The notes below the pieces were generated by a model. The model saw only the letters and a list, made by a program, of their open reading frames with translations. It ran no database searches and was not told where the DNA came from. DNA of 28,486 bases. Origin: a virus. The first letter of the stretch is position 1. Each line of letters begins with the position of its first letter. Made by a program: the position numbers and the translations under genes. Positions 2,077 through 26,969 of the stretch are shown here, piece by piece. Location: positions 1 through 28,486 of the IMG/VR virus record IMGVR_UViG_3300005294_000068, one strand, 5' to 3'.

Positions 2077-4290
2077 ATGGCCGCGCGCGCCACCAACACC
2101 GACCTGGCGCATGGTCCGTTGGACGGGCTCCCCCAACCCGAGCCGATCATCAACCTGGCCGGGATGGCGCCCTGGCCGGTGCGCAAAGCCTATCGGATAC
2201 CTGGTCCCGAGTCGGGCGATCCGGATGTGTGGCTACCCCTGCCGAGTGAATTCTCCTCGGTGTGCGTGTCGCCTTTGGCCAACGACATGCTGCACCGGAT
2301 CTTCTGGACCAACCCGCCCGGCTCGCCGGACGCGGGCGCGTGGTGGAATACTTACGACCGTATTAAAGCCGGTAACTCGGGAACCGACGCGCATTGGAGC
2401 ATGGGGTTCCTACCGCCCGACTCGTCAGCCGGGGCCGCGCCCGTGGTCACGGTATCGGGCGGGACCCTTCCGGCGATGACCGGGTATGGAGCGACCATCG
2501 TCGACGCGGGCACCGGATACATACCGGGGCAGCAACTGTCTGTTTTTGGCGGGACGCTCGCCGAGGGCGGTCAGCCGATGGTCGTCAGCATCGCGCATAC
2601 GTTCGCGATCAGCGCCCGCAGTCATTTCGGCACGGCGGGGACGGGAGGCACCGACGGGCCGGTGACACTTACCGGCACGACGGGGGTCGGCGTGCTGACC
2701 CAGGTGCGGGGCATCATATCCAGCGGGACACTGTACTCGGTGGACGGCATAGCCGATCCCGGCGCCTACACGACGAACCCCACCAACGTCGATATCGAGC
2801 CGGTGGCGGGAGGCGGACTCACGGGCGCCGCCATCACCTTGACCATGGGCGTACGGGACGTAGCGATGGTCAACGCGGGGTCTTATACCGTGTTGCCGCC
2901 GAACCCCGTGCAAACCCGGGTCGTCGGTGGTGGGCCGGGGCAACTCTGTTTGCTCGACGTGACGTGGCAGAGTACCGGCGCGCCGCCCCTGGAGGAACGG
3001 TCCTACTGCTACACGTTCATAGACCAGTACGGCACCGAGAGTTCTCCGTCCGCGCCGTCCCTGGTCGTCGCTGGTCCGAGTAACGGCGTGTGGCATGTCA
3101 CCAACCTGCCCAGGACCGCGCCCGTCGCTCCGACAGGCAGGTATTATCCGCCGCCCGTGAAGACACGCCTGTATCGCACGCTGGTCGCCGCCACGGCGGG
3201 CGCGCAGTTCTACTTCGTGGTGGACCTGCCCTTCGGCACGACCAGCTACGACGACACGATCCCCAATACGACGGTCGTGAACAACAACATCCTGCAGAGC
3301 GTGAGTTTCGCTCCCCCCGTCGACGGGATGGACGGGCTGTTGTCCATGGCCGGTGGGATGATGGTGGCGTTCACCGAGAACACCGTGCATTTCTGCGAGC
3401 CCAACCGGCCCAACGCGTGGCCCGCCGGTTACGATCAGAGCCTGCTTTACCAGATCGTCGCCATGGGCGTGTGGCAGCAGCAACTCATCGTGCTCACGTC
3501 CGGGTTCCCCAGCGCCGGGGTGGGTAACCGCCCCGATCAGTTCACCTTCGCGCAGATCCAGACCGCCGAGCCGTGCATCTCGCGCGGTTCGCTGGTCACC
3601 GATCTGGCGGGGATTTACTACTCCTCGCCCAATGGGCTGGTGGCGATCAATTATTACGGCGCGCAGAACCAGACCCTGAGCAACCTCACCCGTGAGATCT
3701 GGCTGAAACGATTCCATGGCGACAGCCTCGTCGCCGCCCGGCACCGCGCGCAATACCTCGCGGTCAACGGCACCGGCATGGGTTTCGTCATCGACTACAC
3801 GGAACAGCGTTTGGGTATTTGTTCGCTGAGCCCCTTCGTCGGCATCGTGAGCGTATGGAACGACGTCTACACGGGCGACACCTACATGGTGGGCGACCAG
3901 ACGGTCTACCGCTGGGACAGCATGGAGACGCCCGTGCTCATCTACCGGTGGCGGTCGCGGGAATTCTACTTCCCCGCTCCCGTATCACTGGGCGCGTGCC
4001 AGATATCGCTCGATCCCGACGTGAGCCTCCCCAAGCCCAAGGACGCGATCCCGCCGCCCACCGACGGCATGAGCACCCTGAACCTGCCCAACGGCGTGAA
4101 CGCCATCTTCCGGATATTCGCGGGGCCGTCTCAGCAACTGGTTCACGAGGAGTGGCTGCAGCAACCCAGGTGTATCTTCCGCCTGCCGTCCGGTCGTAAA
4201 GCGTTCAACTGGCAATTCGAGATCATCGCGCGCGTGGCTGTTCACAGTGTCGAACTCGCATCGACGATGAGGGAGTTGAAAGGTGTCTAA
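2077..4290 (+). CDS. Tail nozzle-like (tubular protein B-type) virion protein; true N-terminus probably upstream
   Basis: From the first ATG this gives 737 residues. Features recall the podovirus tail nozzle family (T7 gp12-like and relatives): a Fn3-like stretch around residues 309-325 (CYTFIDQYGTESSPSAPS), then RLYRT, then the segment PPVDGMDGLLSMAGGMMVAF and its continuation to NAWP at about 413-450, and repeated beta-propeller-like blades to the end. It would form the distal tail tube through which DNA leaves. The ATG at 2077 has no Shine-Dalgarno. The frame is open from 1999, and upstream codons read AVKDFGGEIPRREPRLLPDN, which fits the N-terminal pattern I recall for this family (PR, PRLLPDN, A..N). 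An ATC at 2005 sits nine bases after GGGAG (1991-1995), so the real start is likely there or a base is miscalled. Family placement is by pattern memory, not by search. Confidence 0.75.
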   Translation: MAARATNTDLAHGPLDGLPQPEPIINLAGMAPWPVRKAYRIPGPESGDPDVWLPLPSEFSSVCVSPLANDMLHRIFWTNPPGSPDAGAWWNTYDRIKAGNSGTDAHWSMGFLPPDSSAGAAPVVTVSGGTLPAMTGYGATIVDAGTGYIPGQQLSVFGGTLAEGGQPMVVSIAHTFAISARSHFGTAGTGGTDGPVTLTGTTGVGVLTQVRGIISSGTLYSVDGIADPGAYTTNPTNVDIEPVAGGGLTGAAITLTMGVRDVAMVNAGSYTVLPPNPVQTRVVGGGPGQLCLLDVTWQSTGAPPLEERSYCYTFIDQYGTESSPSAPSLVVAGPSNGVWHVTNLPRTAPVAPTGRYYPPPVKTRLYRTLVAATAGAQFYFVVDLPFGTTSYDDTIPNTTVVNNNILQSVSFAPPVDGMDGLLSMAGGMMVAFTENTVHFCEPNRPNAWPAGYDQSLLYQIVAMGVWQQQLIVLTSGFPSAGVGNRPDQFTFAQIQTAEPCISRGSLVTDLAGIYYSSPNGLVAINYYGAQNQTLSNLTREIWLKRFHGDSLVAARHRAQYLAVNGTGMGFVIDYTEQRLGICSLSPFVGIVSVWNDVYTGDTYMVGDQTVYRWDSMETPVLIYRWRSREFYFPAPVSLGACQISLDPDVSLPKPKDAIPPPTDGMSTLNLPNGVNAIFRIFAGPSQQLVHEEWLQQPRCIFRLPSGRKAFNWQFEIIARVAVHSVELASTMRELKGV

Positions 4291-4486
4291 GAACCCCAAC
4301 ATCCCGGCCATCTCGTCACCCCAGGCCGACGTCAACGCGCTCGTGTCGGTCGTCATGCAGCTGCGTCAGGGCGTCGAGTCGCTGGCCGGATTCCGTGGCG
4401 GGACACTCGACCGGGCGGTCACGTTGCGGGATTTGGTCGATCTGGGTTTGGTCAGCGCGGCTGATATCCAGGCCAAACTCAGATGA
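4283..4486 (+). CDS. Small phage hypothetical protein after the nozzle gene
   Basis: This 67-residue product starts at a GTG that overlaps the end of the nozzle gene by eight bases, with GGGAG seven bases upstream inside that gene. It has a helical middle (ADVNALVSVVMQLRQGVESL) and ends with VTLRDLVDLGLVSAADIQAKL, a phrase I recall from small proteins encoded near phage tail genes. No catalytic motif or membrane segment is seen. Its stop overlaps the next start as ATGA, so it is in a translationally coupled chain with the nozzle and acetyltransferase genes. A minor structural or assembly role is likely but unproven. Confidence 0.65.
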   Translation: MSKNPNIPAISSPQADVNALVSVVMQLRQGVESLAGFRGGTLDRAVTLRDLVDLGLVSAADIQAKLR

Positions 4487-4941
4487 GCCACCGCGAAGTC
4501 CGCGTGAACCACCCCGGCGACGGCGACTGGATCATGCTGCGCGTGGGCGGCGTGTTCAACGAGAAGACCGATCACACCGTGGCGCTACATCGTGACGGCA
4601 AGATCGCCGGGGGCGTGGTGTTCACGGGTTACCTGGGCGCGTCGATCACGGTGCACATGGCCGGATCGGAGGATAACTGGGCGACACGGGACTTCCTATG
4701 GATGGTGTTCCATTACGCGTTCGTCCAACTGGGTTGCCGGAAAGTCATCGGTCTCGTCAGTTCAGCCAACGCGAGGGCCATGGCGGTGAACATGCGTCTG
4801 GGGTTCGTCCCCGCCGCGCGCATCACCGACACCTATTCGGACGGGTCGGATCTGATCGTGCTGACCATGGAGCGATCCCAGTGCAAATGGCTGGCCCTGA
4901 CACCGAAACACTATCGCAGTAACACACCGGAGCATGTGTAA
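4483..4941 (+). CDS. GNAT-family N-acetyltransferase
   Basis: A 152-residue protein with the overall build of GNAT enzymes, which transfer acetyl from acetyl-CoA to an amine. After beta-strand segments (GGVVFTGYLGASITVHM) comes a helix (FLWMVFHYAFVQLG), a strand (CRKVIGLVS) and then NARAMAVNMRLGF at residues 96-108, the usual GNAT motif-B ending. The canonical QxxGxG/A acetyl-CoA loop is not clear, so the substrate and even catalytic activity are uncertain. Similar genes often sit between tail and internal-protein genes of podophages. The start overlaps the previous stop (ATGA) and its TAA shares one base with the next ATG. It could modify a virion or host protein; the target cannot be told from sequence. 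Confidence 0.75.
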   Translation: MSHREVRVNHPGDGDWIMLRVGGVFNEKTDHTVALHRDGKIAGGVVFTGYLGASITVHMAGSEDNWATRDFLWMVFHYAFVQLGCRKVIGLVSSANARAMAVNMRLGFVPAARITDTYSDGSDLIVLTMERSQCKWLALTPKHYRSNTPEHV

Positions 4942-5810
4942 TGGCCAAGGGTAGCGCACCAGCGGCTCCGGATTATTCGCCGATAGCGCAGTCGTCCTCT
5001 GAAGCGGCGAAGATCCAGGGAGAGATCTCCAGGGAACAACTGGACTGGGCCAAGCAACAATACGCCGATCAGGCGCCGCAGACCAAGGCGTTCATGGATA
5101 AGATGCTTTTGGCGTCCGATCAGTCCAGGGCCGCGCAGGATGAACAACTGGCCAACGCGCGCAAGGCGCAAGGTTTCTACGAAAGCACTTATCAGCCCAT
5201 CGAGGCCCGGCTGGCGTCCGAAGCGCAAGCTTACGCTTCGCCCCAACGCGCGGCGCAACAATCGGCGATGGCGCAAGGCGACGTGTCAGCGGCGTTCTCG
5301 GGCCAGCGCAACGCCGCGCTACAGACCCTGGAGGGCTACAACATAGACCCCAGCCAAACCCGCTACGGCGCGCTGGACCTGGGCGCGCGCATCTCCCAGG
5401 CGGCGGCGCAGGCCAGCGCGGGCACCCAGTCCAGGCTGCAGACCGAAGCGGTGGGGCGTGGGCTGGAGACGGCGGCGGTCAACGTGGGCAGAGGCTACCC
5501 TGGTCAGGTCACCACCGAATATGGTGGGTCCGTGGGGGCTGGCACCGGAGCCGCCGGACAAGGCGGGGCGGGCATCAACGCCGGGATCAACACATCCAAC
5601 GTGTACGGCTCCATGATGGGCAACCCGACGCAGTGGGCGAGCGCCGCCAACGCCTCGCAGAACACGGGTATCAGCGCGACGAACGCGGGCTATCAAAACC
5701 AGATGGCCGGGTTCAACGCCAACGCGGCCATCGCGCAGAACACCTCGTCGGGTATCGGCAGCATGGTCGGCGCGGCGGCTGGCATCGGCGTGATGGCCAT
5801 CGCGGTATGA
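4941..5810 (+). CDS. Internal virion (gp14-like) protein
   Basis: This 289-residue protein is rich in Ala, Gln, Gly and Asn, with long helices (EAAKIQGEISREQLDWAKQQ, then KAFMDKMLLASDQ), a low-complexity Gly/Ala middle and a hydrophobic C-terminus (GSMVGAAAGIGVMAIAV). This profile is typical of the first internal core or ejection protein of podoviruses (T7 gp14 position and style), which is released into the cell envelope at infection and helps extend the DNA channel. GGAG lies eight bases ahead of the ATG. It is followed by two enzyme genes and then two large internal proteins, which supports the role. No sequence identity with gp14 is claimed. Confidence 0.7.
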   Translation: MAKGSAPAAPDYSPIAQSSSEAAKIQGEISREQLDWAKQQYADQAPQTKAFMDKMLLASDQSRAAQDEQLANARKAQGFYESTYQPIEARLASEAQAYASPQRAAQQSAMAQGDVSAAFSGQRNAALQTLEGYNIDPSQTRYGALDLGARISQAAAQASAGTQSRLQTEAVGRGLETAAVNVGRGYPGQVTTEYGGSVGAGTGAAGQGGAGINAGINTSNVYGSMMGNPTQWASAANASQNTGISATNAGYQNQMAGFNANAAIAQNTSSGIGSMVGAAAGIGVMAIAV

Positions 5811-6466
5811 CCGACCAGGACAAGCTCACCACCGCTTCCGAGATCGCGCTGAAAAAGGGTCTGCGCGTATTGCAGGGGTTCCGCCTGGAGAACACCGACC
5901 AGGGGCACGTCGCGGCGTTGCTCGCGTTCATGGCTCCTGGCCGTGGCACCAAATGGGTGGATCTCGGTTGCGGCTTCGGCGAACCGGCCAAGCTCATGAA
6001 GGAGCTACGCCCCGACCTGATGTTCTGGCTGGTGAACAACAATACGTTTCAGCTGTCCAAGTGCCCTTCCGACATGCCGACGTTCTGCTGCGACATGCAC
6101 GACATGCCGTTCGATCCTGGCGAGTTCGACGGGGCGATGTTCCTGTACTCGCTGTGCCACGCGGATGATTTCGTCGTCGCGCTGCGCGAGGCGGCGCGCG
6201 TGGTGCGGCCCGGCGGCAAGCTGTTCGTCTACGACTACGTTCGTTTCGATGGGGACGACGCGCTGGCGCACCAGCATCTGAACGCCCGGTTCATCCCGTT
6301 CGACATGCTCCGCGCGGTGGCGCGCGCGGGCGACTGGGACCTGGAGTCGTTCGTGTTGCCCCGAGGCAGCGACGCGGTGTTCCGCTCCCTGATGCCCAAC
6401 CAGCATCTGTACAACCTGATCTTCAAGGGGCTGCGTCCGATCCTGTGGAAAGCGGCGCGTCGGTGA
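5807..6466 (+). CDS. Class I SAM-dependent methyltransferase
   Basis: This 219-residue protein shows a clear Rossmann methyltransferase plan: motif I VDLGCGFGEP at residues 51-60 binds S-adenosylmethionine, an acidic post-II region (CCDMHDMPFD, 94-103) follows, then FDGAMFLYSLCH as the motif IV strand, and REAARVVRPGGKLFVYDY (127-144), the signature of UbiE/MT11-type enzymes. No DPPY or cysteine DNA-methylase motif is present, so a small molecule, RNA or protein is a more likely substrate than DNA bases. The start is the ATG overlapping the previous stop (ATGA at 5807-5810); longer starts run back through the preceding gene. The stop overlaps the next gene as GTGA, coupling it to the PP-loop protein. 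The enzyme class is confident; the substrate is unknown. Confidence 0.85.
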   Translation: MTDQDKLTTASEIALKKGLRVLQGFRLENTDQGHVAALLAFMAPGRGTKWVDLGCGFGEPAKLMKELRPDLMFWLVNNNTFQLSKCPSDMPTFCCDMHDMPFDPGEFDGAMFLYSLCHADDFVVALREAARVVRPGGKLFVYDYVRFDGDDALAHQHLNARFIPFDMLRAVARAGDWDLESFVLPRGSDAVFRSLMPNQHLYNLIFKGLRPILWKAARR

Positions 6467-7200
6467 TCGACCTCGCGCCCCTGTTGAGGCACGCGCCCGG
6501 CAAGCGGGCGCTCTCGTTCTCGGGAGGTAAGGACTCCATGGCGGTCGTGGAGTTACTACGGGAGTATCTCGACGGGATCACGATCTACCACCTGGACACA
6601 GGTGACCTGCTGCCCGAGATGCGCGAAAGCGTGGCGCGCGTGGAAGCGTTCGCGCCTCACTTCGTTCGTGTTGAGACGGATGTTTCCAAATGGATTGAAG
6701 CCAACGGGTTGCCGACGGACCTGCTTCCTTTTCATAGCCACGTCGTTGGACATCACCTCGGACAGGCTACCGCTCGTTTGGTCGGGCGATACGATTGCTG
6801 TTACGCGAACCTGATGTGGCCGCTCTTCAAGCGCGTGTACGACGACAAGAACACCCTGCTCATACGCGGCACCAAGCGGGTGGACATGCCCAGGTTGCCA
6901 GCCGAGGACGGCGCGGTCGCCGATGGCGTCGAGCTATGGTATCCGTTGCTGAACTGGTCGCACGACCGGGTGTTCGCCTATCTGAGGGAGCGGAACGTCC
7001 CACTCCCCAGGGTCTACGATTATGTAACGAACTCGCCCGAGTGCGCGCGATGCTCGGCGTGGTGGGGCGAGGGGCGTGCCGCCTACCTGAAGAAGTATCA
7101 TCCGGAAATATGGGCCGAATACGACGCGCGGTTGCAGGTGGTCATAGACGCCGTCGCCCCGTCGCTGGCCCTGCTCCGTCACGAAGCGGGGATAACGTAG
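6463..7200 (+). CDS. PP-loop (PAPS/APS reductase-like) protein with Fe-S cysteine pattern
   Basis: This 245-residue protein belongs to the adenine nucleotide alpha-hydrolase superfamily: SFSGGKDS (PP-loop at residues 20-25 from this start) binds ATP, and HLDTG and the later WYPLLNWS are usual for PAPS-reductase-like folds. A Cys-Cys pair (112-113) followed about 80 residues later by CARC (194-197) mirrors the CC...CxxC arrangement that holds the 4Fe-4S cluster in assimilatory APS reductases. The C-terminal catalytic ECGLH cysteine of true reductases is absent, so it is more likely a sulfur-transfer or nucleic-acid-modifying relative (DndC and other phage PAPS-reductase-like proteins share this fold). 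I chose the GTG at 6463 because it overlaps the methyltransferase stop as GTGA; a GTG at 6445 is also possible. Confidence 0.85.
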   Translation: MIDLAPLLRHAPGKRALSFSGGKDSMAVVELLREYLDGITIYHLDTGDLLPEMRESVARVEAFAPHFVRVETDVSKWIEANGLPTDLLPFHSHVVGHHLGQATARLVGRYDCCYANLMWPLFKRVYDDKNTLLIRGTKRVDMPRLPAEDGAVADGVELWYPLLNWSHDRVFAYLRERNVPLPRVYDYVTNSPECARCSAWWGEGRAAYLKKYHPEIWAEYDARLQVVIDAVAPSLALLRHEAGIT

Positions 7201-10200
7201 ATGGCTGGTGGGATTTATCTGGGATCGTTCGCTGGCGGTCTGTTCAGCGGCGCGCAGAGTATCTTCAGTCTGTACAAAGAATACCAGGGTGTGCGTCGTC
7301 AGGTGAAGCTGGACGAGTATGACGAGCAGCGTCGGCTGGCGCGCGAGGAAGATGAGAAAAAACGTCTGGCTGGAACCGGGGCCAGCAAGGTTCCAGGCAC
7401 GCAGGATTTCACCCAGGCTCCCGGAACGACGGCGCTACCCGCCCCCACGCCCGCCCCCACGCCCACGGCGGCGCCGGAAGCCAAACCGGATATCCTGACG
7501 CGTCCGCCCGAACCCGCTTACCCACCGGCACCCCTGACCGAGGGCGATATCGCCCCGTCGTTCCGGGGGCAAAACCGTAGCGCGGCGGGCACGGAGAACG
7601 ATCCGTGGATCACGGGAGGCGGGTATCCGCGCACGCCCATGGTGGGTGGCGTGCCGCGCGCGCTCTACCCATGGGACCCGTATAATCCCGTCGGTACGCA
7701 GACATTACATCCCCAGGAGACGTCGCAAGCCGATGTCGACCGCGCGCTGGCGGAATATCAGGCGCGGCGCGCCATGGCTCGTGACCCGGCTTACGGGCCT
7801 ACTCAGCCGCAGCCCACCGGCCCCGCTCAGATGCCTGACCGTGCCGCGCTTGGTTACGCGCGTCAGTTCAACGCGCCGTCCCCCGGCGTACAGTCCGATG
7901 TGGACGCGCACGGGGCGGTGCCGGACCCGACACGTACGCCGCCCTGGCCCATGACACCCACCAACCAGCCGGTCGGCACCACCGTGGGCGCGGGTGGCGG
8001 TCCCAGCGCGATAACCAATCAGCCGGTCGGAGCTTCGTTGCGGCCCGTACCCGCGCCTCCATCCGTCATGGCTCCCACCAATGAGCCGATACCGAGCCGT
8101 CAGCCAGGCGGACCTTATACGCCGCCGCCACAGCAAGACCCGCGTGTTCCGTCATACACGATGCCGCAGCCCGCCGTTCCCCCGGCGGACGTCGCGCAAC
8201 CTTACCAACCCCCGCCGCCCGTCATGGCTCCCGGTACCGAGCCCATCCCGAGCCGTCAGCCCGGCGGGTTTATCTCACCACCCCAACAGCAAGATCCACG
8301 CGGCCTGCCGCCGCCCCAGCCTTACTCCCCGGCTCAGGCGACACCCCCCACGTCGGCCCCGCCCCCCGCGCCGTCACCGGCCACGCCGCTAGGTGGAGCG
8401 TCCTCGCTGGGTGGGCGCATCCTGAGCATGATCAACCCCATGGGATCGGCTCAGGCCGCCGAGATCACGCCCGCCCGTCCGGTGGGCCAGGGCGACCCCA
8501 ACGCGCCCGCGCCGACACCGACGCAATCGGCGTACGGGCAGCCCCCGCCCCCCGCGCCCGCGCAACCCACGGGCATCACGCCCGCGCAACCCCCCACCGT
8601 GGATAAGAACCCACCCACGCATCCGCCGCCCGCGCCGGTCGCCGTGGCGGGGACCGGCGGCAAGGTCCTGCAATCCGAGGGGACGCCGCCCGCGCTGGCC
8701 CCGCCCGTGGACATGAGCCACTACAACAACGCGAAGACGCGGTATCCGGAACGCCTCGCCATGGTCGAGCGCGCCATCGCGGCGGAAGGCGCCCAGGGTA
8801 TCGTCTCCCCCGAATTCATGCTCGCCACCATCGGGCGGGAGAACGCCGGTTGGAACAACGCCATCAGTCACGGCACGAGCGCGGCGGGATACACATCCAG
8901 CGCCAAGGGGCTTGTACAAATCATTGACGGTACGCGACGCAGCATAGACCCCCGTGGAGAACTGGACTGGCGCGACCCGGAGCAGAACATCCGGTTGGGC
9001 GTGCGGCTCTATAAGACACAGGCACTCGATCAGGGCCTGGGTTCCGATACGTTGCAAAACGCCATGGTGTACCGTGGCGGCTATGATTTCCTGAACGGTG
9101 TCGCCAAACACGGTTTCGATGGTTACGCCGCGCAGGGTCCGGAACAAAAAAGTCAGGTCGTCGACATGATGAAAATGTTCCCCGGTTCGAAACTGGCGGA
9201 CATCCCCATCACGGCGGTCAGTGGCAACCATAAAAATTATGACGCGGTGGCCTTGTACCAGCGCGCTCAGGCCGAGGGGCCCGACGGGTTGTTACGTGGG
9301 TTGGTCGAGACGGGACCGGCGGGACTGGGCATGTCCGACCGCTGGCGCGCGGCTCAATCAGCTCTGGAGAGCTACCTCATCATCAGCGGGCATCCCGAAC
9401 AGGCGGGCATGGCGGGCGAGTGGGTCGCGCAAATGAGCCAGCAGGGCACGGTGTCGAACCTGATCGCCGCCGATCAGGCGATCATGAGCAAGGACCCCCA
9501 GACGGCGATTGGCTACCTCGCCAAGGCGCACGCGTTCTTTCCCGACGGCACCTATGCTCGTTTCGGTGCCGACAACAAAGGCAACATCTGGGCTTATCGG
9601 TTGTCGGACAGAAACGGGACCCCCGTGGGTCAGCCGTTCCAGGTCACGCACGAAGACATCGCGAAGCAGATCATCGGATTGCAGAACCCGGTCACCTACG
9701 TGAAAACATTGCAGGCCCACCAAAAAGAAAACGCCAAGATGGAATTGGATAGGGCGCATACGGAGTATTACAAGCAACTGCCGGGCATCAAGGAGGAACA
9801 GGTCCGCGCCGGTATCGAGAAAGAGCATCTGCGTCAGCAGGGCATAGCCGAGCGTAACGCGCAGGCGGCACAGCATAAAGCGGAGACCGACGCGCTCAGG
9901 GCCGAACGTAACACCGCGCTCGATACGGAAGTTGAAAAAGCCTATCCGCCAGCGGAACGTCCAGAAAAATCACCCGAGGGTGAGTACGAACGCGCGGCTG
10001 ATATCTACCGGCAGATCCGTAAGGTCCCATCGCAAGGCGGCGGCGACATGAGCCAGGCGTCCGCCAAGATGTACGCGGATGGACTGGCCGCTGGTAAATA
10101 CGATTTGCATCTCCTGCCGACCAAGGACGGCAAGGCCGTGTACGCCGTCAGAGACAAGCAGGGTAAGAACGTGGGCACCGCGCCGCTCTCTTATGAGCAG

Positions 10201-10413
10201 GGTGAGCTTATCAAACCGTTGCTGGGTCTGGCCGGATCGGCGCCTTTACAGGGTGCTCCCAACGTGGCGCCGCCCGTCCCATCGCCCACGCCCGCGCTGA
10301 CGCCAGCGAAACCGCCGCCACCCATGAACACCAACGCGCCTTCCGTGCCGCTTACTGATCCGATGGGTAATATGTCGGCGTTACCGAGGCAGGGTTTATC
10401 CAGGGCGGCATGA
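7201..10413 (+). CDS. Internal virion protein with lytic transglycosylase domain
   Basis: A 1070-residue protein. The N-terminus has a short Gly-rich hydrophobic start and a charged helix (DEYDEQRRLAREEDEKKRL). Residues about 75-500 are a Pro/Gln/Ala-rich, probably disordered linker with repeats. A lysozyme-like SLT domain follows at about 505-640: the likely catalytic Glu547 in IGREN, GLVQI at 570-574 (the GLMQ-type motif), and DPEQNIRLGVRLY. The C-terminal third is helical (HQKENAKMELDRAHTEYYKQ, then QAAQHKAETDALRAERN). In podoviruses such ejected proteins cleave peptidoglycan so that the DNA channel can cross the wall (T7 gp16 plays this role). Gene position before the giant protein supports this. 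The start ATG directly follows the previous TAG. Confidence 0.8.
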   Translation: MAGGIYLGSFAGGLFSGAQSIFSLYKEYQGVRRQVKLDEYDEQRRLAREEDEKKRLAGTGASKVPGTQDFTQAPGTTALPAPTPAPTPTAAPEAKPDILTRPPEPAYPPAPLTEGDIAPSFRGQNRSAAGTENDPWITGGGYPRTPMVGGVPRALYPWDPYNPVGTQTLHPQETSQADVDRALAEYQARRAMARDPAYGPTQPQPTGPAQMPDRAALGYARQFNAPSPGVQSDVDAHGAVPDPTRTPPWPMTPTNQPVGTTVGAGGGPSAITNQPVGASLRPVPAPPSVMAPTNEPIPSRQPGGPYTPPPQQDPRVPSYTMPQPAVPPADVAQPYQPPPPVMAPGTEPIPSRQPGGFISPPQQQDPRGLPPPQPYSPAQATPPTSAPPPAPSPATPLGGASSLGGRILSMINPMGSAQAAEITPARPVGQGDPNAPAPTPTQSAYGQPPPPAPAQPTGITPAQPPTVDKNPPTHPPPAPVAVAGTGGKVLQSEGTPPALAPPVDMSHYNNAKTRYPERLAMVERAIAAEGAQGIVSPEFMLATIGRENAGWNNAISHGTSAAGYTSSAKGLVQIIDGTRRSIDPRGELDWRDPEQNIRLGVRLYKTQALDQGLGSDTLQNAMVYRGGYDFLNGVAKHGFDGYAAQGPEQKSQVVDMMKMFPGSKLADIPITAVSGNHKNYDAVALYQRAQAEGPDGLLRGLVETGPAGLGMSDRWRAAQSALESYLIISGHPEQAGMAGEWVAQMSQQGTVSNLIAADQAIMSKDPQTAIGYLAKAHAFFPDGTYARFGADNKGNIWAYRLSDRNGTPVGQPFQVTHEDIAKQIIGLQNPVTYVKTLQAHQKENAKMELDRAHTEYYKQLPGIKEEQVRAGIEKEHLRQQGIAERNAQAAQHKAETDALRAERNTALDTEVEKAYPPAERPEKSPEGEYERAADIYRQIRKVPSQGGGDMSQASAKMYADGLAAGKYDLHLLPTKDGKAVYAVRDKQGKNVGTAPLSYEQGELIKPLLGLAGSAPLQGAPNVAPPVPSPTPALTPAKPPPPMNTNAPSVPLTDPMGNMSALPRQGLSRAA
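8062..8301 (+). repeat. Tandemly duplicated proline-rich segment
   Basis: Within the linker of the transglycosylase protein, two segments starting at Met codons 8068 and 8224 encode near-identical stretches (VMAPTNEPIPSRQPGG and VMAPGTEPIPSRQPGG, each followed by PPQQDPR-like sequence), 156 bases apart. Two shorter related copies, PTNQPVG and ITNQPVG, lie just upstream (about 7957-8034). The repeats look like linker expansion by duplication. Confidence 0.7.
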
Positions 10414-10416
10414 ACC

Positions 10417-13400
10417 ATGGCATATAATGACGAGGGCGATACTACCGTATTAAACGCGCCGGAAGAGGGTGGGTCCGCCCTGGCCCAGGAACAGGATCTC
10501 GCGGACCGGCGAGAACTCCAACAGATCCAGCCTTCTCCGGGTGGTTACGCGCTGCCGCAACGCACTGGCCTGACGCGCGCCGTGCCACCGACGCCGTTGG
10601 CGGTTCGCGCGCAGCCGCGCGTGTCGTTCGCCGATATTGATCCGAACGCAAAACCTTTGGCGGTATACGGACGGCCCGCGCCACCACCGCCCGAGCAAGG
10701 CATCATCGGTAATTCGTTGGACGTGATGTGGAAGGGCGTGCAGTCCAACTGGGCCGACATCATGGGCGCGGCGCGCTTCGCGGAACAGCAACTCTCGTCC
10801 GATCCTGAAACGAAAACCTGGATCGAACGCCAGCGCGAGTCGGTGGAAGGCGAGATCGCCAAGGGATATTCCGATCCCAAACTACAAAAGATCATGTCCG
10901 CCAGCCTGATGTCGCTGTTCGGCGGCAACACCGACGCCAAGGGTAATCACATCCCATCCCCCGGCGAGGTCGGGTGGTTTAATTATTTCCACTACAACAC
11001 GATGGCGATGGTGCCGACGGTCGTGCTGGCGCTGCTCCCCGCCACGGTCACCGCCAAGCTCGCCACCAAGGTCATGTCGTCGCTGGGCGCGGTGGCGAAA
11101 ACCGCCAAGGCGGTGGGCACGGGCTTCGGTGTCGGCGAGTCGGCGTTGCAGGGCGGCGCGCAGAACATGGGCGTGCTCTACAACAGTGTCGCCGACGTGG
11201 TGAAGCACGCGTCGGAAGCGGAGATGATGAAGTCGCCCGCTTACGCCGAATTCCGGCGTGGCGGTTACTCCGACGAAGCGGCCAAGGCCGAACTCATCAA
11301 GCAAACCATCCCGCCCATGGCGCTCCAGGCGTTTGGAGTGGGTGGGCTGGCGGGCGCGGGCGCTACCAGCATCCTGGCGCGCGGCGCGGCGTCGCCCATC
11401 GCCAGCACGGGTCTCAGGAACCGCGCTTTGGGCGCCGCCGTGGGCGCCACCGAGATGGGCGGGCTCATGGCCGGGCAGGCCGGGGTCACCACCGCGCTGG
11501 GCCAACAGGCCGAGCAGGGCATTGGTATCCGTGAAGGTTACGACACCGACGCGATCCGCGCCAACGCCGTGGCGGCGGGTCTTGGCGGCGCGGGCATGGG
11601 CGCGGTGTTCGGTGCCATCCATCCGCCCAGACCGCGTGCCCGGCCCACGCCGGACGTGTCTCCCGACGTGGCCGGGGCGTTGGACGCGGCGTTGCCGCCG
11701 CCCGAGCCACCCGAGCCGCCCGCGCCGCCCACGTCACCCATGCCCCCGCCGCCTCCACCCGACCCGCGTACGCCCGGCCAGATGGAGTTTTCCGGCATGT
11801 CTCCGCAAGGAGAGATGTTCAGCGGCGCCGAAACTGGTCTGGCTCCGCGCCAGCCGATCATCACGGGTGTCCAGCCGGGCATGCCGCCCGAAGCGCAACA
11901 AGGCGGGCTGTTTGATCCCGGTGTGCGCATCACGCAACCGCCGCCCACGCAGGGTGAGATGTTCCCGCGTGAGCCACCGCCACCCACCACGGCCGTCGAG
12001 CCGCCCCCAGGCCCCACGCCCCCACCAGGGTCCACATCCCCACCGGGCCCCACGCCGCCGCCCCCAGGCCCCACGCCTCCACCACCGCGTCCAGGTCCCA
12101 CGCCCCCGCCGCCACGCACGCCCGCGCCCGACATCAGCGCCTACGCGTCGATGAAAAAGACCGATTTGATCGACGCGCTGAGAACGCATGGCGAGACCGT
12201 CAACCCCAACGAGTCGGCGGACCGGCTGCGCATACGTCTGGCCCGCGTCGAAGCCGAGCGCGGCGCATCGACAGGGACTCCTCCGGATACTACAGGAGTA
12301 ACCTCCACTACTGGCGAAGCGGTCACGCCCCGGCGAGACAGTAGTGCCCCGTCGGCGACGGAGAATTCACTCCCTTCGGCGTCGGCGGGGGTTGAGCCCG
12401 CCACCACTGTCCTGGACCGGGCATGGCTGCTTAAAGCGGGCAGCGCTGGTGAGGGCGAGGGTAAGTTCGCCGGGACCGGCTACGATATGAAAAAGGGTGC
12501 CGACGCGTTGACGGCGGAAGCCGAGAAGGCGCTCGCCGCCGGGCACACGGTCGAGCTTGTCACCGACCAAGGTCGTAAGACCGTTCCTATAACGCATATA
12601 AAAAATGGCATGTTGGCTGATGCCAAAGGGCAAGCCTGGGGCACGGCATCCCTGGCCACGGACGGTACCGGCAAAGAAGGTTTGCGCATTACACGCCGTG
12701 TTGCCGAGAATAAAGCGGCGGGGGTTGGCCCCGAGCCCCGTGTCACCGAACTGGAAGGCGAGGCGGCGGCGACCAGGGATTTCAGACCCGGCGCTGAGCC
12801 AGAGGTTTTGTCCACGCTCGTCGCCGAGCCCCGTCAAGAAGTGCAAAACGTTAGCGCGCCCGCGCCCAGAAAAGAGACGAAGACCCAGGAGGCACAGAGG
12901 AAGCGCGAGGAACTGCGGACCCTGGGCGTGAAAAACGCCGGTAAGATGAAGCTCGCCAAGCTTAACGAGACCTATGACCGGGTCATGCGGGAGCAAGAAG
13001 AACTAACGAGAGGGCACGTCCCACCCCCCGTCGAGGCACCCGCGCCCACCAAGGCGGTCATCTCCACCGAGGTCGAGGCGCCGGTAAAAAAGGTCGGCCC
13101 CAAAGCGGCTGAGAAACCCAAGGGTCGTCAGCCACCCAAGACAACGACGGTAGTAATCGAGAGGAAAGCCAACGAGCCGAAGCCGTATGTCGCCGAAGAA
13201 GTGAAAGCCGAGCCGACGGCGGAAGAAGCCCAGGCGGCGCGCTCCACGGAACTGGCGCGCGATCAGGCGCTGGAAGATATCAGTTTCGTCACGCGGACCG
13301 TGGTTGGCGAGGTTCCGCCCGGCACGCCCAAGGGCGCGGCCATGCGTAAAGCGGTCGAGGATCTTGGGCGGCTGGTCAACCTGACCGACGGTTCGCGCGA

Positions 13401-16400
13401 AGACATCACCAGGATGACGCACGCGCTGATGGAGCCACGGGCGGGAGAGCCCGAGGTCGCTACCCAGGCGCGGCAGGAAGTCGCCAGGGCCTACTACGAG
13501 AAGAACATCGGTAAGAAGTTCGGCGAAGCCGTCGTCGACCCCGACGCGGAGCCCACGCGCGGCGAAGTTTCCGTTGTTCGCGAAGAAGAACAAACACGCG
13601 GCGCGACGGAGGGTCCGGCCAAAGCCGAAGACGTAGAAACAAAAGCGGTAGGTGGTGGGGAGGGGGAGAGCGCCGGGCTGACCATGGGCCTGGAGACCAA
13701 GAACAAGGAGGTCACCCAGGCTACCGACGTCAATCGCACGTCGGCTGACTGGATCAACAAGATACTCGATCCGACGGATCGGACGACGGCCACGGAAGCC
13801 GCCTCCCAGTATGATCCGAAGAACAACATGGGACGGCCCCGCTCGGAAGGTTTCCGTACGATGGCCGAGGCGCTCGATACCGAGATCAACCGTGTCACCA
13901 ACGAAGAGAACGCGAGCAAGGATCGGGAAGCTCTGCGCAAGTCGGTCAGCGTGGAGATAAAAGGCACGCCGGGAACCGACGCGTATGATCGCGCGGTGGC
14001 GCGGAAAGACGCGAGAGAAGCCAAACTGGAAGCGAAGCTGGCTGATTTCGCTCCCGAACGCGTTGAACAATTGAGGGCGGCGCGCAGGGAACTCGTCGAT
14101 CCTGTCGGTGTCATTTCCGACGAAGCCAAGGCCATGGCCGACCGCGCCGCGCTCAAGGGGGCGATGGGTAAGCGTAACGTCCAGGCGTCGATGCGCGACA
14201 CTTCGTCCGCGCCGGAACCACCGTTACCAATCACCAACGGAATAGATCCGCGTTCGTCACGCGGTTATAAACTGGCGACCGACCACCGGCTTGGCGCCAA
14301 TCTGGTACGTTGGTTCCAAAGCCGCGAAGGGCGCGGCGAGACGCCGATGTCGCACGACGCGTATCGGCTCATCTCCACCGACCCCATAGTAACCGCCGAA
14401 GCACCGGAACTGGCGGCGTTGGCGCGGCGGCTCATCGACCTCGCGCCAAACGTTCCCATCCATAGTGGGATTGATACGCTCCAGCGTGGTTGGATGATGC
14501 CCGAGCACTTCGATCCGTATTTCACGGGGCGGCTGTTCGGCTACAGCGACATGAACGTGGACCCAAAGGTCCCACGCCACATCATGCTCGACCCCGAGAA
14601 TATAACGAACGCCACGTCGAACCATTCGGTCATCGTCATGCTCCACGAGGGGCTGCACTCGGCCACGCAGAATTACATTTACCATCTGGAACAGCACGAA
14701 CCCTGGCATTTTCATATCCAGGCGCTGGATCTTATTCGCGAAGAGCTTACCAAACGAATCGGAGGCGCGAAAAACGCGCATCCGGGAGAATCCGGTGACG
14801 TCAGATACGCCGTGAAGAATAATCACGAACTCGTATCGGAACTCATGACCAACTCGCAGGTCCAGGCGGCGGCGATGACGGGGAGTTTATCTCCGGAATT
14901 CCGCGAGGGCATGAAATTCTTTGGCTTCGCACCGCGTGGCGCGAAGTCGGTCTGGGCCTACTTCACCCACTGGGTGCGTAAGTCACTCGGTTTTTCTCCA
15001 CCGAAAAGCGCCAGCGAATACACGCTGCTCGACTACGCGTTGCGCCCGATGCAGGAGATCATCGAACACGGCTCCAAATTCCAGAAAGCCATCGACGCCA
15101 AATACCTACCCGCCGAACCCCGGTTGCGCGAAGCGGCGATACCCCTGGCGCGCATGGCCGACGAGGCATTCAGCGGACGCACGAGCCGTCTGGCCGAGCG
15201 CGCGTACCACGCCGTGGGCGACCGGCTCGGCGCTACCAAGGCGCACGCCCTGCTGCAGAGCATCCACCTGGATCGTATGGTCGATAGTTTCGGTCACGTC
15301 ATGCAGGACGGTGACGTCAACCACATCAAGGAAGTCCGCGCGGTGATGGAGCGCGCCGACGTGGCGGGCCAGCGGTTCCTCAAGGACTTCGCTGGCGAGG
15401 CGGGCGAGATCACCCGCGAACTCGTCAAACACGACGACGTGGCCGCGCTGATGAACGACGCGGGCTATGCCCGTGCCGCCCTGGGCACGCGCGAACCTGC
15501 CCAAAATGCACATTTGACCAGCGCCGAGGATCGCGCCCAGCTGGCGGCGTTGCAGACCCGGTTCGACACCATGCCCGCCGAGAAGCAGGCGCTGTATACG
15601 AAGACGCGTGATTTCCTGACCAAGAAATATGCTTTCGAGCGTCAGGCGGTCGCCGACAATCTGGTCAACCGCTTCATGCCCAACGCCACCGACGCCGAGA
15701 AGGCGCTGATGCGCACGACCATGGCGAGCAAGACCCGCCTCGACGCGTTCCTGGCCGACCCCGACAACGCCGGTATCGCCGACGAGCGTAAACGCATAGC
15801 GAAAGGCATGGCCAAGCTGACCCGCATGGGCTTCGTCGACGGGGACTACTTCCCGATGCGCCGCTACGGTGACTTCGCCGTGGAGTATGGCGGCGCGCAC
15901 GGCACCCCCGAATACGGCGTGCAGTTTTTCGAGAAGAAAAGTGAAGCCGCCGCGTTCCGCGCCCAGCAGATCGCCGACAACGTGGCCGACGTGGGCTCGG
16001 TGCGCGAACGTCATGAGATCGTGACCCAGAACAAGGGGCGCCTGTCACCCGTGGTCGAGGACATGATCGACGCGGTCAGGAGAGACCCCGCTTTTTCGCG
16101 CGCGCAAGCGGATCAACTGGAGGAGATGGCGGGACACCTGCAGCTTCGTTACGCGTCCGGCTGGGAGAAGGCCACGGCGCGACGGCGCTACGTGGCGGGC
16201 GCGTCCAAGGACGTGGCGCGCGCCATCAACACCGATGTCAGCGCGACCAGCCGCCGTATCGGCACCATCATGCACGGCGGTGAGCGGGACGCCGCCTTCG
16301 AGCGGATGAAACATTTCGTCGATGAGAAAGGGCGGGACACCAGCAACCCCGACAACACGACGCGCGACCGGATCTATCACGAATTGCAGCAGCGGTTCCA

Positions 16401-18057
16401 ACGCGGCGACGAACTGGACCAGACCGGCGGGTGGGGTATCGCGCGGCGGTTCGCGCAGTTCGGTTACGCGCAAAACCTGCTGAGCCTGTCTCGCGCCCCG
16501 GTCGAGACGTACGAGATGACGTCGAAGATGCTCACGTTCATCGGGGCGAGGTATGGTTACGGGCGCGGCGCGCTGGAACTGGGCCGGGCACTCACGGCCA
16601 TCGGCCCCCAACTGGTGGGCAAGGGCGGGAAGAACACCATCGACGCGCTGATCGGCAAGCCGCTCAGTTCGGCCAACTACAAGTTCACCGAGATCGCCCG
16701 ACAACGGTTCCTGGACAGGGGTTACGACCGTAGTGAAGTCGACGCGCTGTTCAAACACTTCGAAGCGAACGGGTTGTGGGGTAACACCGAGGGTGGATTC
16801 CTGCGGGAGTTGTCGCGCCCCACCAAGCTGGGCGGGGCGTGGGACCGCTTCCTGGAAATCTCCAGCGCCCTGACCCAGGCCACCGACGAGATGGGCCGCA
16901 TCGCGGGCACTATGGCCGCGTTCAAGACGGCGCGCGGCAAGGGCGTGTCCGTTCCCGACGCGATCAACTTCGCGGAGGACACCCTGCGCAAGGCCCCCAA
17001 CTACTCGTCCACCAACCGGGCGCGCATCACCACGGAGAAAGGTTCGCTCAAGGGAGCGGCCCCGGCGATCATGCAGTTCAAGATGTACGGGCTGAACGAA
17101 AGCTGGCTGATCGCCAACATGATGCGCAACTCGTTCGGCCCAGGCGTCGACAAGGCGGTGCGTATCGAAGCGGCCAAGCAACTCGCTGGCACGTTCATGA
17201 TGCACTCACTCGCGGCGGGCGTGCTGACATGGATGGCCGATCCCGTGCGCTACCTGGGCGGCGCGATTGATCTTCTGACCGGACACACGCCCAAGGAGCG
17301 CATGTCCGCGATGCGGTCGTGGCTGGCCGACACCATGGGCCCCACGATGGGCGAGGTCGTCGGCGCGGGCGTGCCGCACGCGTTCGGCGTGGACATGCAG
17401 CACCGGCTGGGCGTGAACAACATGTTCAACCTGCCGCAACTGAACGGCTACGCGCCCAAGGACTTCGTGGAAGCCGCCGGAACCTTTGTCTTCGGCTCGC
17501 CCGGCGGGGCGACGGTCAACGTGATGAGCGGGTTCATGAAGATGCTCCAGGGCGGGTTGTCCGGCGGGCTTCACGACATGGCCTCGGGTGCCGCCGTGGC
17601 TCTCCCGCGCGTCCTGCGTGATCCGATCAAGGCGGGCTTGCTGGCCGACCGTGGCGTGGTCGACCCGCGCGGCAAGGAGATCCTGGCCCCGGAAAAGATC
17701 AGTCCCCTGGACGTCGGCTATCAGGCCCTGGGTTTCGCCCCTTCGCGCGTCACCGAGGCACGGGAGGGCCGTCAGGCCATCGTACAGGCCCGTCAGCAGG
17801 TGGCCGACACGCGGAGCAGGCTCGTGCGACGCTGGCTGGAGGCGGACCCTGGAGACCGCGCGGCGGTATGGTCCGAGATCGCCCAGTACAACGCGAGCCG
17901 GGAGGTCAACCTGGGATCGAAGATCACCAGGGACCAGCTGTTGCAGCAACTCAACGAGCGGCGGAAGGGCAAGCTCCATCCGGGCGCGTTCGGCCTGAGG
18001 CTGCCGAAGGCGAGCGAGCGTCAACTCATGGAGTACGGCGCGTTCGCCAACCACTGA
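10417..18057 (+). CDS. Giant internal virion/polyvalent protein with HExxH metallopeptidase
   Basis: A 2546-residue single frame. Regions seen in order: hydrophobic segment near 196-210 and a Gly/Ala-rich stretch about 280-390; Pro-rich linker about 425-570; a SAP-like helix pair (MKKTDLIDALRTHG) from residue 579; charged helical linkers; a zinc metallopeptidase at about 1340-1500 with HEGLH (His1410, Glu1411, His1414) and downstream NHELVSELMTN (Glu1471 or Glu1475 as third ligand); long helical regions; a hydrophobic stretch about 2256-2285; and a basic C-terminus. This build matches large phage 'polyvalent' or ejected proteins, which carry enzymes into the host with the genome. The peptidase could process host or virion proteins. 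It lies directly after the transglycosylase protein. No polymerase, helicase or methylase motif was found, so it is not an N4-type virion RNA polymerase. Confidence 0.8.
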   Translation: MAYNDEGDTTVLNAPEEGGSALAQEQDLADRRELQQIQPSPGGYALPQRTGLTRAVPPTPLAVRAQPRVSFADIDPNAKPLAVYGRPAPPPPEQGIIGNSLDVMWKGVQSNWADIMGAARFAEQQLSSDPETKTWIERQRESVEGEIAKGYSDPKLQKIMSASLMSLFGGNTDAKGNHIPSPGEVGWFNYFHYNTMAMVPTVVLALLPATVTAKLATKVMSSLGAVAKTAKAVGTGFGVGESALQGGAQNMGVLYNSVADVVKHASEAEMMKSPAYAEFRRGGYSDEAAKAELIKQTIPPMALQAFGVGGLAGAGATSILARGAASPIASTGLRNRALGAAVGATEMGGLMAGQAGVTTALGQQAEQGIGIREGYDTDAIRANAVAAGLGGAGMGAVFGAIHPPRPRARPTPDVSPDVAGALDAALPPPEPPEPPAPPTSPMPPPPPPDPRTPGQMEFSGMSPQGEMFSGAETGLAPRQPIITGVQPGMPPEAQQGGLFDPGVRITQPPPTQGEMFPREPPPPTTAVEPPPGPTPPPGSTSPPGPTPPPPGPTPPPPRPGPTPPPPRTPAPDISAYASMKKTDLIDALRTHGETVNPNESADRLRIRLARVEAERGASTGTPPDTTGVTSTTGEAVTPRRDSSAPSATENSLPSASAGVEPATTVLDRAWLLKAGSAGEGEGKFAGTGYDMKKGADALTAEAEKALAAGHTVELVTDQGRKTVPITHIKNGMLADAKGQAWGTASLATDGTGKEGLRITRRVAENKAAGVGPEPRVTELEGEAAATRDFRPGAEPEVLSTLVAEPRQEVQNVSAPAPRKETKTQEAQRKREELRTLGVKNAGKMKLAKLNETYDRVMREQEELTRGHVPPPVEAPAPTKAVISTEVEAPVKKVGPKAAEKPKGRQPPKTTTVVIERKANEPKPYVAEEVKAEPTAEEAQAARSTELARDQALEDISFVTRTVVGEVPPGTPKGAAMRKAVEDLGRLVNLTDGSREDITRMTHALMEPRAGEPEVATQARQEVARAYYEKNIGKKFGEAVVDPDAEPTRGEVSVVREEEQTRGATEGPAKAEDVETKAVGGGEGESAGLTMGLETKNKEVTQATDVNRTSADWINKILDPTDRTTATEAASQYDPKNNMGRPRSEGFRTMAEALDTEINRVTNEENASKDREALRKSVSVEIKGTPGTDAYDRAVARKDAREAKLEAKLADFAPERVEQLRAARRELVDPVGVISDEAKAMADRAALKGAMGKRNVQASMRDTSSAPEPPLPITNGIDPRSSRGYKLATDHRLGANLVRWFQSREGRGETPMSHDAYRLISTDPIVTAEAPELAALARRLIDLAPNVPIHSGIDTLQRGWMMPEHFDPYFTGRLFGYSDMNVDPKVPRHIMLDPENITNATSNHSVIVMLHEGLHSATQNYIYHLEQHEPWHFHIQALDLIREELTKRIGGAKNAHPGESGDVRYAVKNNHELVSELMTNSQVQAAAMTGSLSPEFREGMKFFGFAPRGAKSVWAYFTHWVRKSLGFSPPKSASEYTLLDYALRPMQEIIEHGSKFQKAIDAKYLPAEPRLREAAIPLARMADEAFSGRTSRLAERAYHAVGDRLGATKAHALLQSIHLDRMVDSFGHVMQDGDVNHIKEVRAVMERADVAGQRFLKDFAGEAGEITRELVKHDDVAALMNDAGYARAALGTREPAQNAHLTSAEDRAQLAALQTRFDTMPAEKQALYTKTRDFLTKKYAFERQAVADNLVNRFMPNATDAEKALMRTTMASKTRLDAFLADPDNAGIADERKRIAKGMAKLTRMGFVDGDYFPMRRYGDFAVEYGGAHGTPEYGVQFFEKKSEAAAFRAQQIADNVADVGSVRERHEIVTQNKGRLSPVVEDMIDAVRRDPAFSRAQADQLEEMAGHLQLRYASGWEKATARRRYVAGASKDVARAINTDVSATSRRIGTIMHGGERDAAFERMKHFVDEKGRDTSNPDNTTRDRIYHELQQRFQRGDELDQTGGWGIARRFAQFGYAQNLLSLSRAPVETYEMTSKMLTFIGARYGYGRGALELGRALTAIGPQLVGKGGKNTIDALIGKPLSSANYKFTEIARQRFLDRGYDRSEVDALFKHFEANGLWGNTEGGFLRELSRPTKLGGAWDRFLEISSALTQATDEMGRIAGTMAAFKTARGKGVSVPDAINFAEDTLRKAPNYSSTNRARITTEKGSLKGAAPAIMQFKMYGLNESWLIANMMRNSFGPGVDKAVRIEAAKQLAGTFMMHSLAAGVLTWMADPVRYLGGAIDLLTGHTPKERMSAMRSWLADTMGPTMGEVVGAGVPHAFGVDMQHRLGVNNMFNLPQLNGYAPKDFVEAAGTFVFGSPGGATVNVMSGFMKMLQGGLSGGLHDMASGAAVALPRVLRDPIKAGLLADRGVVDPRGKEILAPEKISPLDVGYQALGFAPSRVTEAREGRQAIVQARQQVADTRSRLVRRWLEADPGDRAAVWSEIAQYNASREVNLGSKITRDQLLQQLNERRKGKLHPGAFGLRLPKASERQLMEYGAFANH
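11998..12126 (+). repeat. Proline-rich low-complexity repeat in the giant gene
   Basis: Degenerate tandem units such as CCAGGCCCCACGCC encode repeated PPPGPTP motifs that link the Gly/Ala-rich N-terminal part to the SAP-like segment. The stretch is strongly C-rich on this strand. It is likely a flexible spacer that lets domains move through the narrow tail during ejection; this role is inferred. Confidence 0.7.
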
Positions 18058-23791: not shown

Positions 23792-25366
23792 TCAGAACGC
23801 CTTCTTCTGTTGATGGAACAACTCCAACAAACAGTTCTGCATGCGCTGTTTGAAGCGCAACTTGGTATACGTCGCCTGTTCGACGGGGGTGCCCACCATG
23901 TGGACGATCAGCGTCTTATGGAGTTGACCCGGTCGATTGATACGCGCGTTCGCCTGTTCGTAGATTTCAAGAGACGTCGTCGGTGAATACCATACGATGG
24001 TGTCCGCCTCGGTAAGCGTCAGACCATGCGCCAGTGTCTGAGGGTGCGCAACAATTATCTTTGGGTTCGGTTTATTTTGAAAGTCACCGAATATGATATC
24101 CCTCGCGGTCCTTCCTATGCCCCCGTGAACCACCGCTATGTCGTAATGGTTCTTGCGCAAATACGTGGACACACCCAGCAACGCGTGCATGAACGGCACC
24201 ATGACCAGTACCTTGCGGTCGGTCTCGTCGAGCACTTCGGTCAGCGCCGACAGGCGCGTCGTCGCGTCCATCTCGTAAACGGTGTGATTATCGGTATAGA
24301 GATAGCCGCACGACACCTGCAGTAGCTTATTATGCAACACGCCCTGGTTGACCGCCGAGATGTTCTCGTTCTTCTGGGTCAGCATATGCGCCTTGTTGTA
24401 TAACAGGCCATAGGCTTTCTTCGCGTCCGCGTCGAGCATGACGGCGCGGTCGACAATCGAGCACTCCGGTAGTTCCATGACGTCGTCGCGGGTATATCTG
24501 ACGGACGGCGACATGGCCTGACGCACGAGGGCGTGCGCCTCGGGTTTGGGATACCAGCGGAACTGATTGATGCGCCGCATGGTCATGTCCTGGAACGCCG
24601 TGAAGGATCTCACGGTGCGTTCCGGCGTAAGCAGACGTACCTGTGCCCAGGCGTCCGTCGGGGCGTTTGGCGTGGGAGAGCCGGTAAGCCCCCAGGCGAA
24701 TCGGACATCGGACCGGGCTATAAGGGCACGCGCGGTGTTCCACAACTCCGTACGACGGTTGCGATAAATAGCAAGCTCATCAAGAACAACGATATCAAAG
24801 CCAGCTTCCTGGACCGCCGTTCCAAGGACCCGTAATCCATGATGGTTAATCACACATATGTCAGAGGATGATCCCAGTAGTTTCAGACGTTTCTCACGGG
24901 AGCCGTAGAGAACAACCACCCTGCGGCCCATGACAAGCTGAAATAATTCCTTTTCCCACACGGGGGTGAGCGTGCTCAGAGGCGCCACCACCAGCATGCG
25001 CTTCGCCATCCCCGCGCGCATCAGATAGTCGGCGGCGTAGATGACCGACCGTGTCTTGCCCGTCCCCATCGAGCTTAGCACATAGCAGCGCGGGCTCTCG
25101 ACCAGCAGCGCCGCCGTGGTGCGCTGGATATCCCACGGCTTGGTGTTCAGCCAGTCGTAGCGGGTCAGGATGGGCGCCGGGACGGGGATGCCCACGTTGC
25201 GGGCGATACGAGCCTCGTCGGGCTGGTTGGGCAGCAGGAGCATCCGCGACCCCTGCCATCTGAAGGGGCGGGCGTGAGGCACCGCCGAGGCCAGCGCCTG
25301 ATCCCAGGGGACGGCCACGTGCTGGCCGTCCCTGGTGATGAATGTGATCGGTGTTTCGACGTTCAT
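23792..25366 (-). CDS. SNF2-family helicase/translocase
   Basis: A 524-residue superfamily 2 ATPase. Walker A is SMGTGKT (99-105), motif II DELA (196-199), motif III LTGSP (227-231), and motif VI is YEQANARINRPGQ (469-481), with the GQ ending characteristic of SNF2-type enzymes rather than DEAD-box proteins. Such proteins translocate on double-stranded DNA and remodel protein-DNA or branched structures. It directly follows, with an ATGA overlap, a VRR-NUC nuclease, a pairing known in phages, suggesting a combined nuclease-translocase acting in recombination or branch processing. The ribosome-binding AAGGAGTGA is about 11-13 bases upstream in the end of the nuclease gene. Confidence 0.9.
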   Translation of the reverse strand: MNVETPITFITRDGQHVAVPWDQALASAVPHARPFRWQGSRMLLLPNQPDEARIARNVGIPVPAPILTRYDWLNTKPWDIQRTTAALLVESPRCYVLSSMGTGKTRSVIYAADYLMRAGMAKRMLVVAPLSTLTPVWEKELFQLVMGRRVVVLYGSREKRLKLLGSSSDICVINHHGLRVLGTAVQEAGFDIVVLDELAIYRNRRTELWNTARALIARSDVRFAWGLTGSPTPNAPTDAWAQVRLLTPERTVRSFTAFQDMTMRRINQFRWYPKPEAHALVRQAMSPSVRYTRDDVMELPECSIVDRAVMLDADAKKAYGLLYNKAHMLTQKNENISAVNQGVLHNKLLQVSCGYLYTDNHTVYEMDATTRLSALTEVLDETDRKVLVMVPFMHALLGVSTYLRKNHYDIAVVHGGIGRTARDIIFGDFQNKPNPKIIVAHPQTLAHGLTLTEADTIVWYSPTTSLEIYEQANARINRPGQLHKTLIVHMVGTPVEQATYTKLRFKQRMQNCLLELFHQQKKAF

Positions 25367-26966: not shown

Positions 26967-26969
26967 CAA

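Follow-up and report, generated by a model that had tools for sequence, protein, structure and literature searches.

The window analyzed here is a stretch of 28,486 nucleotides from a 28.5-kb virus record, and it carries a very large multidomain protein encoded amid late virion genes. On the plus strand, these include genes for an internal virion protein (phrog_511; 2077..4290) and a virion structural protein (phrog_8003; 4941..5810), identified by PHROG and protein matches as homologues of BcepIL02 gp63 and gp66, respectively, a GNAT acyltransferase (4483..4941) that is conserved at the same place in Bcep22-like phages, and a PAPS-reductase-like protein (6538..7200) that is 42% identical to BcepIL02 gp67 and also conserved in those phages. 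The order of internal virion protein, GNAT, virion protein, PAPS reductase and giant gene is that of BcepIL02, and three of the encoded proteins show 28-42% identity to their BcepIL02 counterparts. Sequence comparison places the phage among the short-tailed, Bcep22-like phages, named after a Burkholderia phage. The gene next to the giant (7201..10413, plus strand) codes for a 1070-aa protein with an SLT transglycosylase domain (PF01464, residues 529-605, 8785-9015 on the plus strand; E 1.7e-4, just above the cut-off), and its stop lies 3 bases ahead of the giant's ATG. It is a conserved neighbor in the clade and presumably a partner ejection protein of the giant. Among the three versions scanned (the window and the relatives L015 and L024), PF01464 reaches E 4.2e-12 in L015, and no SLT domain was detected in L024. 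A class I methyltransferase (Methyltransf_11, 5633-6466) also lies inside the virion gene block, and a tail fiber-type protein with a C-terminal Peptidase_S74 (endosialidase chaperone) domain is found at the window's left end (34-555). A convergent replication block on the minus strand (19027-21972, 23792-25366, 25363-25677 and 26289-26969) contains a DUF927 primase/helicase, an SNF2-type helicase, an endonuclease-like protein and a RecB-like exonuclease. In the window, the SNF2 helicase thus has an early gene of its own, whereas in relatives it forms part of the giant.

The giant gene (10417..18057, plus strand) runs as a single frame from an ATG at 10417 to a stop at 18055-18057 without an internal stop, and its third-position GC is of the coding type along the entire frame, which bears out the 7.6-kb frame of 2546 residues proposed in the initial annotation of this DNA. 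Family recovery with the C-terminal module of the protein as bait yielded 80 loci on viral contigs and 61 loci in bacterial genomes. Nine of these are close relatives (L015, L016 and L018-L024), with identities of 28-37% across most of the C-terminal module; for L023 and L024, the identity of the module to the window protein is 26-27%. The proteins of L015 and L019-L024 are complete, measure 2347-2653 aa and come from genes in the corresponding position. No near DNA relatives of the window were found in the phage collection, and PDB searches with the single sequences of the giant and of the SLT protein returned nothing significant. The giant is also present in a second record: contig L002 (10.1 kb, metagenome 3300005295) codes for a protein 100% identical to residues 543-2546.

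The N-terminal half of the protein contains an Ala/Gly-rich hydrophobic region at residues 190-420 (10984..11676, plus strand), followed by a proline-rich linker at residues 420-575 (11674..12141, plus strand; 38% Pro). The linker had been described before, and so had several hydrophobic segments, which are borne out in part: one segment (residues 195-220) is strongly hydrophobic and is a candidate membrane segment, and the rest is the Ala/Gly-rich stretch around it. The role of residues 190-420 may be read by analogy with the N-terminal domain of the N4 virion RNA polymerase (vRNAP; PMC12633501). A SAP-like segment had also been proposed, at residues ~572-612 (12130..12252, plus strand). Pfam gives sub-threshold matches there (FANC_SAP, E 0.08; Rho_N, E 0.29) and no counterpart was found in nine relatives, and the SAP domain was therefore dropped.

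The C-terminal third of the giant is a PLxRFG ('tail-700', NF032893) module at residues 1646-2546 (15352..18054, plus strand). The long helical regions had earlier been left without a named family, yet NF032893 matches residues 1810-2518 with E 4e-68 and 230.5 bits, well past its curated cut-off of 100. Motif comparison indicates that PMRRYG (15853..15870, plus strand) is the window's version of the PLxRFG motif. AlphaFold2 models the module as almost only helices (pLDDT 77); Foldseek found no significant solved fold for it in the PDB, and no relation to the helical C2 region of the N4 polymerase was detected. Near its start lies an LPD39-like segment (PF18858, residues 1694-1764; 15496..15708, plus strand), with E 2.8e-4 in the whole protein and 1.7e-5 as a fragment. 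Its 21.1-25.0 bits are below the gathering cut-off of 27, whereas the same domain in the relative L015 is above it (43.2 bits, E 4.6e-11). LPD39 is a suspected enzyme, and a zincin is the sole recognised enzyme of the window giant. Neither an SNF2 helicase nor a DNA methylase gave a Pfam, NCBIfam or PHROG match in it, and its DarB PHROG match is confined to the C-terminus. A single-subunit RNA polymerase domain is likewise absent, the virion RNA polymerase PHROG (phrog_2206) matching the zincin region only.

The zincin metallopeptidase domain spans residues 1268-1557 (14218..15087, plus strand), as delimited by conservation, profile matches and AlphaFold2. Its HEGLH motif at residues 1410-1414 (14644..14658, plus strand), invariant in relatives, stands exactly where the initial annotation had placed it, with H1410 and H1414 as predicted zinc ligands and E1411 as the predicted general base. 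The HELVSE motif noted downstream is also present (residues 1470-1475), but of its two glutamates E1471 is the one that counts and would be the third zinc ligand (14827..14829, plus strand), while E1475 is not conserved. Chance alone would put about 0.06 HExxH motifs into a protein with the giant's composition, and for this reason HEGLH alone is weak evidence; it is the conservation of the site in a masked test that makes the evidence strong. When 27 zincin regions were aligned, just four positions were invariant, namely the His, Glu and His of HExxH and the position of E1471. Because these regions had been selected by HExxH, the test was repeated with the four active-site columns hidden in the search model, which retrieved 49 distinct domains with a median column identity of 31%. 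HExxH was present in 48/48 domains in which the position was visible, and the distal Glu in 49/49. The AlphaFold2 model (input alignment depth 27; pLDDT 80, pTM 0.80) starts with a helix, continues with three strands and closes with the HExxH helix and then the Glu helix, which is the zincin topology. In it, H1410-H1414 are carried by model helix 140-163 and E1471 (model residue 207) by helix 205-214, the latter of the C-terminal core pair. This agrees with the core described for polyvalent-protein metallopeptidases (MPTases), which consists of an N-terminal helix, three strands and two C-terminal helices (PMC5512222).

Pfam has no direct model for the window peptidase or for any of the 27 relatives, and the family libraries scanned (Pfam and NCBIfam) do not directly supply a peptidase family name. 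Foldseek with the zincin model gave no significant match in the PDB; anthrax lethal factor and N4 vRNAP appeared there among the noise only and were set aside as evidence. Against predicted viral structures, the model found a match with E 2e-5, and the best matches include internal or core proteins, virion polymerases/vRNAP and crAss zincin fusions. At rank 1 stands a Vibrio phage protein with an odd name, and several matches are unnamed. Taken together, the conservation pattern and the model indicate that residues 1268-1557 are a genuine zincin fold with an intact active site, which is predicted to bind zinc and to be proteolytic.

The same zincin occurs in ejection proteins with solved structures. 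The zincin profile matches four of them with E-values of 1.7e-17 to 8e-7, and all four retain HExxH and the Glu: an internal virion protein whose sequence is that of LKD16/LUZ19-type phages (9sfn_G, LUZ19/LKD16 gp37; E 1.7e-17), gp10 of Klebsiella F19-type phages (23sg_S; E 7e-11), the tetrameric ejection protein PhiM1 gp48 (8vb2_A; E 1e-10) and the N4 virion RNA polymerase (11fw_A; E 8e-7). The case in which residues 1340-1500 would give no metallopeptidase hit, named in the initial annotation as a refutation, thus did not occur. Given the lack of a significant Foldseek match in the PDB, the link to the solved structures rests on sequence profiles. HExxH and the distal Glu were present in 8/8 phiKMV-group ejection proteins that were fetched independently, and hhalign of the zincin against this group gave a probability of 99 (E 7e-18) versus 0.4 for the neighboring module as control. 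The match of the window zincin to phrog_2206 is weak (E 0.0086), and those of L024 and LKD16 gp37 reach 3e-7 and 7e-17, respectively; all three fall at model positions ~2090-2250. They thereby lie around the C1 domain of the N4 polymerase (2124-2375), in which an HExxH has been reported (PMC12633501).

HExxH motifs are frequent ahead of PLxRFG modules in general. Within ~600 residues before the module, 67/123 proteins have one (33 of this zincin family and 34 of others) compared to 1.7% of shuffles, which indicates that a protease is repeatedly kept beside the module. This is suggestive only of a functional tie between the two. A strict rule of a metallopeptidase slot is weakened by three observations. 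First, a JAMM/RadC-like H-x-HP...S-x2-D motif replaces HExxH in 20/123 of the PLxRFG giants (L048, L066, L046, L100 and others), with L100 matching Pfam RadC (E 4.6e-7); these domains may not be peptidases, and the RadC-like ones may act on nucleic acids. Second, no metal site could be recognized ahead of the module in 36/123 proteins. Third, ART and LPD domains also occur in the slot. In one section of PMC5512222, RadC is listed as confined to polyvalent proteins of conjugative elements, and prophages are mentioned in another.

Among named systems, the window shares its locus and neighbors with the DarB-like giants of Bcep22-like podoviruses, i.e., BcepIL02 gp70, DC1 gp67 and JC1 gp69. The SLT domain and the zincin family are common to the window and the BcepIL02 and DC1 giants. 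The Bcep22-like giants are one fused chain of ~4600 aa with an Eco57I-type methylase, an SNF2 helicase, LPD3 and a C-terminal LPD38; that of BcepIL02, for example, has 4667 aa and combines all of these with SLT and the same zincin (HEAFH; E 6e-38). In the window, by contrast, the SLT domain is split off, methylase and helicase are undetected, and the protein ends in PLxRFG instead of LPD38. In the window clade, transglycosylase and zincin/PLxRFG are found in adjacent genes and helicase/methylase were not found. The split is the same in Rhizobium phage RHph_TM3_14A, which shares the convergent replication genes and whose giant (QIG67549, 2307 aa; ~25% identity to the window giant) also has the zincin and PLxRFG in collinear order. 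Unlike the window giant, it contains an inorganic pyrophosphatase domain (PF18823; E 2e-48), which lies at L004:9073-9477, corresponding to residues 860-994 of the TM3_14A giant. The tetrameric ejection proteins of the phiKMV group (LKD16/LUZ19 gp37, PhiM1 gp48) are internal virion proteins with a homologous zincin, including HExxH and the distal Glu, but they are only 1230-1340 aa long and, unlike the window giant, have no detectable PLxRFG or LPD modules. The N4 virion RNA polymerase has a homologous zincin (C1, with its HExxH at 2228), a large helical region C-terminal to it, an N-terminal membrane region and long linkers, but it differs from the window giant in carrying the RNA polymerase and in its C2, for which no relation to PLxRFG was detected.

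In CsCl-purified virions of JC1, 51 unique peptides came from gp69, which had the second-best score of all proteins (PMC9144972). Absence from purified virions, the other refutation named in the initial annotation, was thus not encountered either, the virion evidence being that for this relative. A place in the virion may be extended to the window giant through the homology of its locus and zincin to the JC1 group, whose giants end in LPD38, and the window giant is probably a virion/ejection protein of the polyvalent type that is packaged and injected with the DNA. The initial annotation had likened it to polyvalent phage proteins carrying a metallopeptidase, a reading that is strengthened by the homology to ejection proteins and the N4 polymerase, by the LPD39 and PLxRFG modules and by the Bcep22-like collinearity.

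We propose, with a probability of roughly 0.6, that the giant is a virion/ejection protein of a Bcep22-like podovirus whose zincin works locally, on ejectosome proteins or on envelope proteins at the entry site. The protein, composed of the hydrophobic N-terminal region, flexible Pro-rich and charged linkers, the zincin and the ~900-residue helical PLxRFG module, would be packaged in the capsid together with the remaining internal proteins, among them the 1070-aa transglycosylase protein, and would exit with or before the DNA. The transglycosylase would open the peptidoglycan and the N-terminal region of the giant would seat in the envelope. The zincin would then act at or after ejection, its targets being components of the ejectosome (the giant among them) or proteins of the envelope close to where the DNA enters, and it would not be a free effector against a host defense system. 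An ejectosome-related job is favored because phiKMV-type ejection proteins retain the active site although Pfam scans of them detected no effector domain. We know of no experimental cleavage by this zincin family.

The zincin could alternatively cut the giant, and perhaps its partners, before or during packaging, in the manner suggested for DdrB of P1, and the injected species would then be fragments. Autoprocessing has been proposed for the MPTases of polyvalent proteins, with DdrB cleavage cited (PMC5512222), and both the long unstructured linkers N-terminal of the zincin and the transglycosylase, already a separate gene in the window clade, would be in keeping with it. Nevertheless, the solved phiKMV-group ejection proteins with this zincin are modeled as long chains in the virion, N4 vRNAP is packaged uncut (PMC5512222) and no cleavage site is evident in the giant, and we therefore regard such processing as unlikely, though it fares best among the alternatives. 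Less probable still is the initial suggestion that the injected zincin degrades a host defense or regulatory protein in the cytoplasm. Polyvalent proteins do often carry effectors (PMC5512222), and ART, InPase and helicase/methylase modules lie near the zincin in relatives, but the helicase/methylase linked to antirestriction are undetected in the window giant, and the zincin is intact in phiKMV-group and N4 ejection proteins, i.e., in unrelated phages with unrelated hosts, a distribution more in line with a general part in DNA entry than with a defense-specific task; for this latter reason a host-defense target was rejected as the best explanation. Least probable is a metal site kept for folding or assembly and not for catalysis, for which the reported need of the N4 vRNAP MPTase region for encapsidation (PMC5512222) and the predicted nature of the zincin's activity would speak, but the HExxH Glu, which a metal site could do without, shows the same invariance as the ligands.

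The local role at the entry site, which we prefer, also bears on the annotation of phiKMV-type proteins. In PhiM1 gp48, residues 268-528 were assigned to an endolysin/exotransglycosidase-like domain (PMC11440229), and the zincin profile covers residues 381-510, inside this region. No Pfam lysozyme or SLT domain was found in the three such proteins scanned (LKD16 gp37, CB5 gp51 and F19 gp44). The 'endolysin-like' region of PhiM1 gp48 and other phiKMV-type ejection proteins thus reads as a zincin. We give an even chance to the broader proposal that podovirus ejection machines in general include a member of one zincin family with its catalytic site intact (Bcep22-like, phiKMV-group, N4-group and probably crAss-like), and that residues 268-528 of PhiM1 gp48 are this metallopeptidase, acting on entry-site proteins and not on peptidoglycan.

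A previously unannotated giant thereby gains a testable domain map, and polyvalent-protein metallopeptidases are tied to ejection proteins with solved structures. The window giant itself joins an already known class; less expected is that the phiKMV-type 'endolysin-like' domain appears to be this zincin, previously overlooked or called 'endolysin'. If the zincin is active, there would be a proteolytic step in the DNA entry of many podoviruses, and the label 'internal virion protein with endolysin domain' would need correcting. Many phage records carry this wording, and the annotation appears to have been propagated; in the phiKMV-group ejection proteins of our set (L155-L162), the zincin lies around residues 370-510.
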